Shown piece by piece: positions 16,212 to 21,582 of a stretch of DNA of 64,000 bases. The stretch's first letter is position 1, and each line of letters opens with the position of its first letter. The notes below the pieces were generated by a model that made no database searches, was not told where the DNA came from, and saw only the letters and a list, made by a program, of their open reading frames with translations. Where the stretch lies: NCBI GenBank assembly GCA_901420285.1, contig CABDVE010000001.1:806001-870000 (forward strand), read 5' to 3'. Both the position numbers and the translations under genes were made by a program. Source of the stretch: Stutzerimonas stutzeri. Its GTDB lineage: Bacteria; Pseudomonadota; Gammaproteobacteria; Enterobacterales; Pasteurellaceae.

Positions 16212-17252
16212 ATGAAGTTCAACAAAATTTCTCTTTCAATTTCAACCGCGTTTTTAGCTGTCGGTTTATTGTCTTCCACTGCAGCAAACGCGCAAGGTCG
16301 TTTAGTAGTGTATTGTAGTGCCACAAATATTTTATGTGAAACTACCACCAAAGCTTTTGGCGAAAAATATGATGTCAAAACCTCTTTTATTCGTAACGGT
16401 TCCGGCAGCACTTTCGCCAAAGTGGAAGCAGAAAAAAATAACCCTCAAGCGGACGTTTGGTTTGGTGGCACGTTTGACCCACAGGCCCAAGCTGCCGAGC
16501 TCGGTTTAATCGAGCCGTACAAATCTAAACATATTGATGAAATCGTAGAACGCTTCCGCGACCCGGCAAAAACCAAAGGTCACTATGTTTCCGCCATTTA
16601 TATGGGAATTTTAGGTTTCGGTGTGAACACGGAACGTCTTGAAAAATTAGGCATTAAAGAGGTGCCGAAATGCTGGAAAGACTTAACTGATCCGCGCTTA
16701 AAAGGCGAAGTGCAAATTGCAGATCCACAAAGCGCCGGTACGGCTTACACCGCCTTAGCAACTTTTGTACAACTTTGGGGTGAAAATCAAGCCTTTGATT
16801 ACTTAAAAGCCTTACATCCGAATGTTTCCCAATACACTAAATCCGGCGTCACTCCGTCTCGTAATGCGGCACGCGGCGAAACGGCCATTGGTATCGGCTT
16901 CTTACATGATTACGCCCTTGAAAAACGTAATGGCGCACCGTTAGAGCTAGTGGTTCCTTGTGAAGGTACCGGGTATGAATTAGGTGGTGTGAGTATCTTA
17001 AAAGGTGCACGTAATCTTGATAATGCAAAATTATTTGTGGATTGGGCGTTATCCAAAGAAGGGCAGGAATTGGCATGGAAACAAGGCGAATCCTTACAAA
17101 TCTTAACCAACACCACTGCAGAACAATCTCCGACCGCGTTTGATCCAAACAAATTGAACCTGATCAATTACGACTTTGAGAAATATGGTGCCACCGAACA
17201 ACGCAAAGCCTTAATTGAAAAATGGGTTCAAGAGGTTAAATTAGCGAAATAA
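16212..17252 (+). CDS. afuA: Hexose-phosphate binding protein AfuA (copy 1)
   Basis: Periplasmic substrate-binding protein of 346 residues with a signal peptide cut after ANA (residue 27). AfuABC was first annotated as an iron importer, but AfuA of Actinobacillus pleuropneumoniae binds hexose-6-phosphates. Ligand residues I recall from that work map cleanly in mature numbering: Ser37 (NGSGST), His205-Asp206 (FLHDY) and Glu229 (TGYELGG). Further family blocks are [10 protein letters not shown] and [18 protein letters not shown] 16212 has an aggagtg site; the longer open frame from 16095 is leader. It is followed by a second afuA, afuB and afuC. Confidence 0.88.
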
Positions 17253-17258
17253 CGTTGT

Positions 17259-17282
17259 AGGGGCAAATTACATTTGCCTCTA
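17259..17282 (+). other. Hairpin between the two afuA genes
   Basis: An inverted repeat (aggggcaaat / atttgcctct) lies just after the first afuA stop and lacks a T-run. Such hairpins often protect the 3' end of binding-protein mRNA or partly reduce downstream transcription, giving more binding protein than permease. Confidence 0.5.
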
Positions 17283-17353
17283 TCAGTAATCTTCATTAAT
17301 GACGCAATCATCTAGGCTTGCGTTCATAAAATAAAAAATACAGGAGTGTTCCA

Positions 17354-18397
17354 ATGAAACTCTCAAAAATCTCCTTAGCCGTATCTACATCCGCAACTTT
17401 ATTAAGTGGTGTATTCTTCCCTGCTCAGGCGCTGGCCGAAGGTCGGTTGGTCGTGTATTGCAGTGCACAAAATTCAGTTTGTGAAACCCAAGTTCAAGAA
17501 TTTGCTAAAAAATATGATGTTAATACCACATTTGTTCGTAATAGCTCAGGCAGTACCTTGGCAAAAATGAAAGCGGAAGCCAATAACCCGCAAGCGGATG
17601 TGTGGTATGGCGGTACTTTTGATACCCACTCGCAAGCGGCTGAAATGGATTTATTAACTGCATATCAATCTCCAATGCTTAATGAGGTTATGCCTGAATT
17701 TAAAGATCCGGGTCGTCGTAAAGGTAACTACAGTTCCGTTGTTTATATGGGTGTGCTAGGTTTTGGTGTGAATACCGAAAAATTGAAAAAATTGGGTATT
17801 ACCGAAGTGCCAAAATGTTGGAAGGATTTATTAGATCCAAGACTTAAAAATGAAGTTCAAATTTCGGACCCGCAAAGCGCTGGAACTGCATATACGGCGA
17901 TTGCAACATTTGTCCAACTTTGGGGCGAAGACGCCGCATTCAAATATTTAAAAGATCTTGATAAAAATATTTCACAATACCCTAAAGCCGGCACCGCACC
18001 CGCACACAACTTAGCACGCGGAGAAACAACGGTCGGAATCGGTTTCTTGCAAAATTATTCTTTTGAGAAACAAAACGGAGCCCCGATTGAAATTGTCGTT
18101 CCTTGCGAAGGAACAGGCTATGAATTAGGAGGCGTAAGCATTATTAAAAATGCCCGTAATTTAAAAAACGCTCAGTTATTTGTGGATTGGGCAATGTCTA
18201 AAGAATCCCAAGAACTTTCTTGGGAAAAAGGTCAATCTCATCACATCTTAACCAATGTAAATGCTAAAGGTTCTCCTTATGCTTTGAAGTCAAACGAATT
18301 AAATTTAATTAAATATGACTTTGATAAATTTGGTTCTTCCGATGTGCGAAGTGGTTTAATTGATCGCTGGGTACGTGACGTCAAATTAAATAAATAA
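17354..18397 (+). CDS. AfuA paralogue (copy 2) with altered ligand residues
   Basis: A 347-residue periplasmic binding protein and tandem paralogue of the preceding afuA, aligning along its whole length with few gaps. The signal peptide ends AQALA (residue 28). The family blocks [21 protein letters not shown] and EGTGYELGG are kept, as is the equivalent of Ser37. The His-Asp pair at mature 205-206, however, is Gln-Asn here (FLQNY, residues 233-234 of the precursor). In copy 1 these are ligand contacts, so this copy probably binds a different sugar phosphate or binds weakly. It has its own caggagtg ribosome site and lies directly before afuB. Confidence 0.85.
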   Translation: MKLSKISLAVSTSATLLSGVFFPAQALAEGRLVVYCSAQNSVCETQVQEFAKKYDVNTTFVRNSSGSTLAKMKAEANNPQADVWYGGTFDTHSQAAEMDLLTAYQSPMLNEVMPEFKDPGRRKGNYSSVVYMGVLGFGVNTEKLKKLGITEVPKCWKDLLDPRLKNEVQISDPQSAGTAYTAIATFVQLWGEDAAFKYLKDLDKNISQYPKAGTAPAHNLARGETTVGIGFLQNYSFEKQNGAPIEIVVPCEGTGYELGGVSIIKNARNLKNAQLFVDWAMSKESQELSWEKGQSHHILTNVNAKGSPYALKSNELNLIKYDFDKFGSSDVRSGLIDRWVRDVKLNK

Positions 18398-18425
18398 TTT
18401 ATTTATTACCAAAAACGGAGGCTTT

Positions 18426-20483
18426 ATGAGAAAGCAGTATAATTTTCTCAATTCCAATCTCTTTTGGGTAATGTTCGCTATGGTAGGCTTTATTTGCCTA
18501 CCATCACTAGCGTTATATTACGGCATTTTTGATTCTACTTCGGATGAAATACTTGCAGCGATGGGGTGGTATCAGCCTAATCTTAGTTGGATGTGGTTTG
18601 GTTCACTCTTTCTTATCCCTGTATTTTCTGGTTTATGGAAAACGAAAGGTGTTATATCTCAAGGAAAAATTGAGTTTATTTTATCCTGTATTATTTTTGC
18701 GTTTGTTATGATTTCTGCGACAATCGCAAAAATAAGTTTAGGGTATTCTATTTTTATTCTTACTGTAGCGTTAATTGGTATTTCTACTAATGCGCTAGCT
18801 AAAATGAAGGTAATGCAAAGCGATAAATTTATTATCGGATCGTTAATTAGCATTATTCTGCTTATCTTCTTTTTTATTGTTTACCCAACGTTGGCAATTT
18901 TTATATCAATGTTCTATAAAGGTTCGGAATTTGTTCCGGGACAAGTCATTGATATAGTAAAACAACCTTATGTTATTAGAATTATTCTGAATTCTCTCTC
19001 TGTGGCTGGGACGATTGGGGTTCTCGCCACCGCATTCGGTTTAGTATTTGCGTTATATACAACAAGAATTGCTAAACGTAGTGCTGTAATAGGCAAAATA
19101 TTTTCTATATTACCTATCGTAACACCGCCATTTGTAGTGGGATTGGGTGTAACCTTAATGTTGGGACGATCCGGTTACATCACTCAATATTTAGTGGAAT
19201 ATTTAGGTTTTGATAGTAACTGGCTATATGGTTTCACCGGCATCGTGATTGCGCATACACTTGCGTTAACACCGATGTCTTTTATGATTTTGGAAGGCGC
19301 ATTAAAGTCAATTCATCCTTCAATTGAGGAGGCCTCTTATACATTAAGAGCAAATCGCTATCAAACCTTTTTCAACATTATTTTTCCATTACTGAAACCA
19401 GCTTTAGCAAATTCATTCTTGGTCGTTGCTATTCAGTCTATTGCCGACTTTAGTACACCATTGGTTTTAGGTGGAAGTTTTGACGTAATTTCATCACAAA
19501 TATACTTTTATATTGCGGGTTCTCAACTAGATTACGCTTCTGCTAGTACACTAGGGACAATCTTATTAATTTTCTCTTTAGGTATTTTCATTATCCAATA
19601 TTGGTGGATTGGTAACCGTTCTTACACAACGGTATCAGGGAAATCTTATCGTGGTGATGTACAAGAATTACCAACTACCATGAAATATACCATCACTTTT
19701 ATTCTAGGGTTTTGGGTAGTGTTTAACGTAATGCTTTACGGCAGTATTTTCTACGGTAGTTTCACTGTAAACTGGGGCGTAAACTATACGTTAACATTGA
19801 AAAACTATATAACCCTGTTTGGGCAAGGTTTCAGTGACGGAGCTTGGCCATCATTAATTCAAACGGTCATTTTTGCCGCAACAGCTGCACCTATTACCGC
19901 ATTATTTGGCTTATTAATTGCTTACATTACAGTACGTCGTGAATTTAAAGGTAAGAAGACACTAGAGTTTTTAACATTGCTTTGTTTTGCAGTGCCAGGG
20001 ACGGTAGCCGGTGTGTCTTATATTCTTGCGTTTAATGATGCGCCGATTTATATCACCGGTACCGGCTTAATCGTTATTCTGTCCATGGTGATGCGTAATA
20101 TGCCTATAGGAATGCGTGCAGCCATAGCAGGGTTAGGCCAATTAGATAAATCTCTGGACGAGGCCTCTCTTTCATTAAAAGGTAGTTCGTTTAAAACAAT
20201 CTGTTTTATTGTATTTCCATTGTTGAAACCGGCTTTGCTATCTGCTTTGGTAACAAGTTTTGTTCGTGCAATGACAACCGTGAGTGCTATTGTATTCTTA
20301 GTTACTGCCGATACCCGAGTCGCTACGTCTTATATCCTAAACCGCGTTGAAGATGGTGAATACGGTATTGCCATTGCGTACGGTTCTATCTTGATCGTGG
20401 TGATGATGGCGATTATTTTATTCTTCGACTGGATTGTCGGTGACACCCGCATTTCCCGTTCCAAAGCGAAAAAAATGAATTAA
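18426..20483 (+). CDS. afuB: AfuB-type fused ABC permease
   Basis: A 685-residue inner-membrane permease made of two fused binding-protein-dependent transport domains, so one chain supplies both pore halves. Two EAA loops are visible, ending in the same block: EEASYTLRANRYQTFF and DEASLSLKGSSFKTI, each followed by FPLLKPAL. There are roughly 12-14 hydrophobic segments, with several extra helices before the first domain (residues 1-155). Codon use is AT-richer than in afuC, notably in the first third. It sits between the afuA paralogues and afuC and presumably accepts both binding proteins. Confidence 0.87.
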   Translation: MRKQYNFLNSNLFWVMFAMVGFICLPSLALYYGIFDSTSDEILAAMGWYQPNLSWMWFGSLFLIPVFSGLWKTKGVISQGKIEFILSCIIFAFVMISATIAKISLGYSIFILTVALIGISTNALAKMKVMQSDKFIIGSLISIILLIFFFIVYPTLAIFISMFYKGSEFVPGQVIDIVKQPYVIRIILNSLSVAGTIGVLATAFGLVFALYTTRIAKRSAVIGKIFSILPIVTPPFVVGLGVTLMLGRSGYITQYLVEYLGFDSNWLYGFTGIVIAHTLALTPMSFMILEGALKSIHPSIEEASYTLRANRYQTFFNIIFPLLKPALANSFLVVAIQSIADFSTPLVLGGSFDVISSQIYFYIAGSQLDYASASTLGTILLIFSLGIFIIQYWWIGNRSYTTVSGKSYRGDVQELPTTMKYTITFILGFWVVFNVMLYGSIFYGSFTVNWGVNYTLTLKNYITLFGQGFSDGAWPSLIQTVIFAATAAPITALFGLLIAYITVRREFKGKKTLEFLTLLCFAVPGTVAGVSYILAFNDAPIYITGTGLIVILSMVMRNMPIGMRAAIAGLGQLDKSLDEASLSLKGSSFKTICFIVFPLLKPALLSALVTSFVRAMTTVSAIVFLVTADTRVATSYILNRVEDGEYGIAIAYGSILIVVMMAIILFFDWIVGDTRISRSKAKKMN

Positions 20484-20499
20484 GTTGTAGGTAAAAAAT

Positions 20500-21546
20500 A
20501 TGAGTAATGATTTCTTAGTATTAAAAAACGTCACTAAAGCTTTTGGTAAATCCGTGGTCATTGACGATTTGGATTTAAACATCAAACGCGGCACTATGGT
20601 TACCTTGCTTGGTCCGTCCGGCTGCGGTAAAACTACAGTTTTGCGTTTAGTGGCAGGCTTGGAAAGCCCGACTTCCGGTCAAATTTTCATTGATGGCGAA
20701 GATGTCACCAAATCTTCCATTCAAAACCGCGATATTTGTATCGTGTTCCAATCTTATGCACTGTTTCCGCATATGAGTATCGGCGATAATGTAGGCTACG
20801 GCTTGCGTATGCAAAACGTGAGCAAGGAAGAGCGTAAACAACGGGTGAAAGAAGCCTTGGAATTGGTAGATTTAGCCGGATTTGAAGATCGTTATGTGGA
20901 CCAAATTTCCGGCGGTCAGCAACAACGCGTCGCACTAGCTCGCGCACTCGTGTTAAAACCGAAAGTGTTACTGTTCGATGAACCATTGAGTAATTTGGAT
21001 GCCAATTTACGTCGTGCCATGCGGGAAAAAATCCGTGAGCTGCAACAAAGCCTAGGTATCACCTCCCTTTATGTCACCCATGACCAAACCGAGGCCTTTG
21101 CGGTATCGGATGAAGTCATCGTGATGAATAAAGGCAAAATTATGCAAAAAGCACCGGCAAAAGAGCTTTATTTACGTCCGAACTCTTTGTTCTTAGCCAA
21201 TTTTATGGGGGAATCCAGTATTTTTGACGGCGAATTGGCAAACGGTACGGTGAATATTCATGGCTACTGTATTCCGCTTTCCGATGCGGCACAATTTAGT
21301 TTACCGGATGGTCCATGCCTTGTAGGTATTCGGCCGGAAGCAATTTTTCTTGCCGCGGAAGGTAGCGAAGCGCAACATTGTGAGATTAAAAGCGCAGTCT
21401 ATATGGGCAATCACTGGGAAGTGATAGCATCTTGGGCGGGTAAGGATTTATTGGTAAATTGCAAACCGGAAGATTTTAATGCGAATTTAAAACAGGCTTA
21501 TGTGAATTTATCCGAACACGGTATTTTCTTATTGAAGAAAGAATAA
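20500..21546 (+). CDS. afuC: AfuC-type ABC transporter ATPase
   Basis: The ATP-hydrolysing subunit of the afu importer has 348 residues. Walker [10 protein letters not shown] is at 38-46, followed by the Q-loop [11 protein letters not shown], the signature [14 protein letters not shown], Walker [13 protein letters not shown] and the H-loop VTHDQTEAF. The C-terminal TOBE-like domain (about 240-348) is typical of the MalK/FbpC group. The older annotation as ferric transporter FbpC is possible on sequence alone. Linkage to AfuA, AfuB and a CRP site favours sugar phosphates. It ends the operon at a clear terminator. Confidence 0.88.
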
Positions 21547-21553
21547 TAACCAC

Positions 21554-21582
21554 AAGGCGCATAATTATGCGCCTTCTTTTTT
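21554..21582 (+). terminator. Terminator of the afu operon
   Basis: A perfect palindrome (aaggcgcataattatgcgcctt, 21554-21575, cut here only by its centre) is followed by CTTTTTT. It lies directly after the afuC stop. Confidence 0.88.

Follow-up and report, generated by a model that had tools for sequence, protein, structure and literature searches.

Sugar phosphates are taken up by way of AfuABC, a system that depends on a binding protein, in Pasteurellaceae as well as a number of enteric and Vibrio pathogens. According to the paper that describes it, the binding protein AfuA of A. pleuropneumoniae binds glucose 6-phosphate (G6P), fructose 6-phosphate (F6P) and sedoheptulose 7-phosphate (S7P) with nanomolar Kd; the changes H205A, D206A and E229A each abolish binding of G6P, and S37A and T150A weaken it. 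AfuA homologues are defined there by a His205, Asp206 and Glu229 motif, and the passage on these homologues says nothing of a second binding gene (PMC4546632). A relative of AfuA in Pasteurellaceae, P5PA (PDB 6wce), is 54% identical to it and binds pyridoxal phosphate, not G6P, and it has been tested together with AfuC of the Afu system. The P5PA pocket retains a His at the position matching 205; the residues matching 206 and 229 are both Ala, and position 105 is Leu (PMC8427247).

The afu operon and its paired binding-protein genes

The window analysed here is a stretch of 64,000 nucleotides (G000:C1:806001-870000) of a 1.93 Mb Pasteurellaceae genome. It contains an afu operon (16212-21546) in which afuA1, afuA2, afuB and afuC follow one another on the + strand, the first two as a tandem pair with intact open reading frames. 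Binding proteins are classed by their residues at AfuA positions 205, 206 and 229, and are called HD, QN or HE after the first two of these.

16212..17252, + strand: afuA1, HD-class binding protein (His205-Asp206-Glu229), 346 aa including the signal peptide
16905..16910, + strand: His205-Asp206 codons of afuA1 (cat gat)
17257..17283, + strand: perfectly paired 12-pair hairpin, without a T run after it, in the 101-base afuA1-afuA2 spacer
17354..18397, + strand: afuA2, QN-class binding protein (Gln205-Asn206-Glu229), 347 aa including the signal peptide
17365..20354, + strand: tract of about 3 kb exchanged relative to the same-species genome G129, from identity per 100-base bin
18050..18055, + strand: Gln205-Asn206 codons of afuA2 (caa aat)
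18426..20483, + strand: afuB, fused permease, type I
20500..21546, + strand: afuC, ATPase
21554..21575, + strand: terminator-like hairpin with a T run 3' of afuC; such matches are no commoner in the region than in shuffled sequence

The two binding-protein genes are likely to be co-transcribed, because no promoter-like site is seen within the spacer between them, the spacer hairpin lacks a T run and a terminator-like hairpin follows afuC. The nearest promoter-like match on the + strand (17215-17242) falls within the afuA1 gene, and shuffled sequence yields such matches more often. The spacer folds with a z-score of -3.4, more strongly than 200 of 200 shuffles, and its hairpin may protect or attenuate the transcript. 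A dispersed repeat was ruled out as the origin of the hairpin, which occurs as a single genome copy at up to 3 mismatches.

AfuA1 and AfuA2 share 64% identity over 347 alignment columns, and both are well above the curated cut-off of the SBP_bac_6 profile (PF13343; 95.5 bits for copy 1 and 90.1 for copy 2, cut-off 24.6). The closest solved sequence to either is AfuA of A. pleuropneumoniae (PDB 4r72-4r75; 1.5e-176 for copy 1, 2e-143 for copy 2), with which both have in common the fold, the AfuB and AfuC partners and the residues Ser37, Thr150, Tyr103 and Glu229. Copy 1 carries the His205-Asp206-Glu229 motif of AfuA, whereas copy 2 departs from it with Gln205-Asn206-Glu229, and proteins of the QN class could not have been recognised by the three-residue motif given in PMC4546632. 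The initial annotation had placed tandem afuA genes at 16212-18397, with His-Asp in copy 1 and Gln-Asn in copy 2 at positions 205-206 and the Ser37 and Glu229 equivalents kept by both; two intact + strand frames and the alignment with 4r72-4r75 bear this out. It rightly named Asp206 and Glu229 as needed for binding and left out His205, and besides the 205-206 pair it missed five further differences between the copies at AfuA ligand contacts, namely T11Q, G36S, S184A, V186T and Q269H. Position 186 is Ile in the A. pleuropneumoniae protein, Val in copy 1 and Thr in copy 2. Besides Gln205, Asn206 and Glu229, AfuA2 has Q11, S36, S37, T60, A184, T186 and H269. For copy 2, a structure prediction built on a 29-row alignment reaches a mean pLDDT of 66 and is weak at 135-176, 206-230 and 245-255, the pocket included.

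Copy 2 resembles P5PA in being related to it (376 bits to 6wce) and in having Gln at position 11. An identification of copy 2 as P5PA is nevertheless rejected, as it scores 480.8 bits against 4r72 and the pocket residues differ, the QN class having Gln205, Asn206, Glu229 and Gly105. It was also rejected as a ferric binding protein since AfuA and P5PA are by far its closest solved relatives. The second closest solved sequence to both copies, 8x1a chain B, is named a 'periplasmic iron-compound-binding protein' and has the His-Asp pair, so it belongs to the HD class; a text search for the entry code alone found no paper on it. A separate P5PA-like gene lies outside the window in the same genome (L001:1429-2526, G000:C1 near 568157), with 434.7 bits to 6wce against 353.5 to 4r72.

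Pocket classes across the Pasteurellaceae

AfuA-like proteins were classified in 109 genomes (that of the window and 108 others) within stretches around the best AfuA matches; the survey holds among the matches listed, down to about 496 bits, and a weak QN copy elsewhere in a genome could be missed. By the residues at 205, 206 and 229 there are 109 HDE, 38 HEE and 26 QNE proteins, one QN protein cut by a contig end and one HGT protein. An HD copy is present in 109/109 genomes, a QN copy in at least 27, an HE copy in at least 38 and both QN and HE in at least 8. The HD copy comes first in the operon where several are present, and the HE class sits at the afuA2 position in other genomes. All of the QN genomes (27/27) also have an HD copy, as would be expected of an added specificity. 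The loci returned from 21 further family genomes are HD in 13, HE in 2 and QN in 0, along with P5PA-like proteins and four listed matches that had no locus and were left unclassified; the last 10 family genomes have a best match no better than E 1e-9. The QN class is thus found in at least 27 of 140 Pasteurellaceae genomes. Across 394 genomes in the order, 34 from the family and 360 from outside it, the pattern GIGF-[LMI]-QNY has 6 hits; these are 6 of the 8 known QN carriers among the 34, with 0 hits among the 360. A scan of named genomes found HD plus HE in Cardiobacterium hominis and C. valvarum. No description of the QN or HE class or of an exchange within the operon was found in the titles and abstracts listed from mostly open-access literature. 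In G132 (L117) the gene immediately preceding the HD copy of an afu operon encodes an AfuA-like protein whose residues at 205/206/229, His-Gly-Thr, resemble the P5PA pocket.

In a tree of 164 proteins the HD, QN and HE classes each occupy one side of one branch (support 94, 97 and 100, SH-aLRT by the quick method), and the P5PA-like protein of the window's genome falls outside all three on a long branch of unsure placement. The QN class is named by its Gln-Asn pair, but its clade comes from the whole-protein tree, and the pair is more than chance because 26/26 distinct sequences of this one clade carry it.

The pair is part of a larger set. At the 19 AfuA contact positions, as named in PMC8427247 and counted on distinct sequences (26 QN, 105 HD and 31 HE), the QN class has Q11 in 24/26, A184 in 24/26 and S36, T186, Q205 and N206 in 26/26 each, with H269 in 25 sequences, the remaining one being cut off. 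The HD class has T11 in 104/105 and G36, S184, I/V186, H205, D206 and Q269 in 105/105 each, and the QN pocket therefore differs from it by T11Q, G36S, S184A, I/V186T, H205Q, D206N and Q269H. Nine contacts (S9, S37, G38, G59, Y103, G149, T150, G185 and F203) are invariant over all QN and HD sequences, Ser37, Gly38, Gly149, Thr150 and Gly185 being kept in 26/26 distinct QN sequences, and E229 is present in every QN sequence that reaches that position. Position 60, a phosphate neighbour occupied by Thr in AfuA, varies among the 26 QN sequences, with Pro in 18, Thr in 7 and Ser in 1 (Thr in copy 2 of the window), so that the phosphate anchor is not wholly kept. Differences fixed between HD and QN at 90% or more affect 11 of 319 mature positions and are concentrated in the pocket (6/19 contacts against 5/300 elsewhere; Fisher 7.5e-6), also without the class-naming positions 205 and 206 (Fisher 0.0006). 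By residue volumes the seven changes leave the net side-chain volume almost unchanged, and one acidic group is lost. The QN pocket looks like a rebuilt head-group site, and not like random decay.

The HE class has Q11, T37, N186 and E206 in 31/31 each; the enrichment of HD-HE differences at contacts gives Fisher 0.028, and 0.12 without position 206, hence it is not significant. At contact position 269 the HE sequences split into Ser (16/31) and Gln (15/31), which perhaps marks two sub-specificities.

In codon comparisons by the Nei-Gojobori method the median dN/dS rises from 0.035 in HE (193 pairs) through 0.086 in HD (1204 pairs) to 0.139 in QN (46 pairs from 22 sequences), with 5 of the 27 QN sequences left out, four for want of the trimming anchor motif and one cut by a contig end. 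For copy 2 of the window, 15 of 21 pairs gave values of 0.022-0.128 and 6 of 21 gave none, most pairs being saturated at synonymous sites. By this measure the QN class is clearly under purifying selection, though less constrained than HD and HE, a point against the reading of afuA2 as a working gene given below. These values bear on the proposal of a loss of function, made in the initial annotation, by which copy 2 would be a decaying duplicate. Such decay would fit the replacement of two of the three essential sugar-binding residues, and it is consistent with repeated loss that most afu loci lack QN, as do 23 of 48 loci with type I AfuB. Set against this are the same pair and pocket set in 26/26 distinct sequences, the low dN/dS, the intact frame and signal peptide of AfuA2 and the presence of QN genes inside exchanged tracts, by which the class has spread (see below). 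Loss of function is accordingly unsupported and, judged from the genomes compared, very improbable; afuA2 is, by its descent, a member of a conserved clade and not a decaying duplicate.

The other proposal of the initial annotation, a second ligand, fares better, in that the pocket has changed as a set, is kept across many genera and mostly retains its phosphate anchor. These features suggest that copy 2 would bind a phosphate ester, and that its ligand would differ from that of AfuA. P5PA is a precedent for a change of ligand with the phosphate grip kept, which counts towards a new ligand for copy 2. It could also be that copy 2 binds the same G6P, F6P and S7P with other affinities or rates, so that uptake would gain capacity or work at two affinities. 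This is possible because Gln and Asn are still able to form hydrogen bonds to the hydroxyls of a sugar, in place of His and Asp, and the published AfuA mutants were changes to Ala; copy 2 also retains Glu229, Tyr103, Phe203 and the majority of the phosphate contacts, and afuA2 lies in the same operon as afuA1. It is unlikely all the same, as the class departs from AfuA jointly at 7 of the 19 contacts, 6 of which are fixed at 90% or more in QN and HD alike, and a single Ala at 205 or 206 abolishes binding in AfuA (PMC4546632). As to what the different ligand may be, the loss of an acid with Glu229 retained leads, purely as a chemical guess, to a sugar phosphate bearing an acyl group, an acidic group or a group at another position, for example an N-acetylhexosamine 6-phosphate, 6-phosphogluconate or a pentose phosphate.

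Exchange of the operon middle

A genome of the same species by its search label, G129, encodes AfuA1 and AfuC proteins 100% (rounded) identical to those of the window. Where the window has copy 2, however, it encodes an HE protein, and its AfuB is only 74% identical to that of the window; the AfuB of G022, a genome placed in the Aggregatibacter group, matches it at 98.4% identity. At the DNA level the flanks, afuA1 and afuC of the two genomes are about 98% identical. In bins of 100 bases, identity stands at 94-100% between 14080 and the spacer, falls to 42-83% over about 17365 to 20354 and regains 94-100% across afuC; one bin further on is at 0.90, and identity drops where the compared stretch ends. 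The exchanged tract has its left edge somewhere in 17279-17371, where afuA2 starts, and its right edge in 20354-20604, which is in the final part of afuB or immediately beyond it. The afuA1-afuA2 spacer is outside the tract and has high identity in G129 despite the other cassette.

The same pattern, a low-identity middle with high identity regained near +3200 bases, is seen in the pairs G014/G016 and G081/G072, and has thus also been met in Aggregatibacter and Haemophilus. In all three compared pairs the right edge falls at a similar place, close to where afuB ends. Pairs of one class (G016/G019, G073/G072 and G081/G080) show no dip over the binding-protein and permease genes, the single low bin of G016/G019 being in the spacer; G080 against G072 is less clear, its upstream flank being low too. 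In the 164-protein tree a single group, at support 100, holds the QN proteins of G000 (the genome of the window), G014, G015, G080 and G081. Their HD copies are placed differently, that of G000 with G129 and those of G014 and G015 with other Aggregatibacter. This conflict indicates that the middle of the operon has been transferred between lineages.

Taken together, it is probable that afuA2 is a working QN-class gene whose product takes a different phosphorylated ligand through AfuBC, and that afuA2 and afuB are exchanged as one stretch. It is proposed that both binding proteins are secreted and, most likely, dock on AfuBC, with AfuA1 delivering hexose and heptose phosphates. Copy 2 would grip the phosphate of its ligand in the fashion of AfuA, with the head-group side of the pocket rebuilt, and would thereby capture another phosphorylated small molecule and hand it over to the neighbouring AfuBC beside AfuA1. 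Recombination between the constant afuA1 and afuC would swap afuA2 and afuB as one stretch and could give strains of one species different accessory specificities. QN would then be an established accessory class of the known AfuA family, exchanged with its permease, rather than one odd duplicate.

Permease types

A FastTree tree of 103 full-length AfuB proteins out of the 109 genomes, cut at its longest separating branch, gives a type I (n=48) and a type II (n=55), with mean identities of 0.82 and 0.87 within the types and 0.74 between them and with 18 diagnostic positions. Type I genomes are HD only in 23 cases, HD+QN in 17 and HD+QN+HE in 8; type II genomes are HD only in 26, HD+HE in 28 and HD+HG in 1. 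In this tree, from which G024 (split AfuB) and G057 (AfuB on a different contig) are absent, the QN genomes have type I AfuB in 25/25 cases, and none of the 55 type II proteins comes from a QN genome. Genomes with HE and without QN have type II in 28/28 cases, HE occurring with type I only in the 8 triple carriers. The permease shared by both copies, as first assumed, therefore needs qualification: AfuB comes in two deep types, and as only type I occurs among the 25 full-length proteins of QN genomes, the changes in afuA2 and afuB have gone together. The AfuB type may matter as well. A literature search on shared-permease cases found nothing to the point among the papers listed.

The exchange could also have no consequence for transport, neighbouring genes being carried along and the permease type following descent only. 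Contiguity alone could explain the joint movement of afuA2 and the adjoining afuB, and shared descent could explain the pairing of QN with type I, as the AfuB types are clades and the QN label changes 9 times on the AfuB tree by the most economical count, at least 5 of these forced by well-supported branches, which means that independent events are few. Such neutrality is quite plausible, if a little short of evenly poised; it sits less easily with the lack of QN beside type II (0/55) and of an HE-only locus with type I (0/48), the junction being between adjacent genes, and with the similarly placed right edges, close to the afuB end, of the three compared pairs. That the afu locus is instead a specificity switch, with QN and HE each having a ligand new to the family and matched to its own AfuB type, is suggested tentatively and remains on the doubtful side. 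If QN and HE do bind other phosphorylated compounds, many genomes annotated with 'two AfuA (iron) binding proteins' would have an unrecognised uptake ability. The locus also offers natural sets of binding protein and permease with which to test how specificity is divided, and three pockets on one scaffold allow a clean comparison of ring recognition in phosphate-ester binding proteins.

A few loci depart from the usual layout. In G057 the QN gene (L111:9115-10170) has the full QN pocket set and stands alone, between what we take from sequence reading to be mutS-like and hslU-like neighbours, with the HD copy and an AfuB 81% identical to that of the window on other contigs; the linkage of QN to afuB is thus not obligatory. 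The AfuB frame is in two pieces in G079 (L156), G123 (L148) and G024 (L235, L236), and these split frames are possible pseudogenes or sequencing errors.
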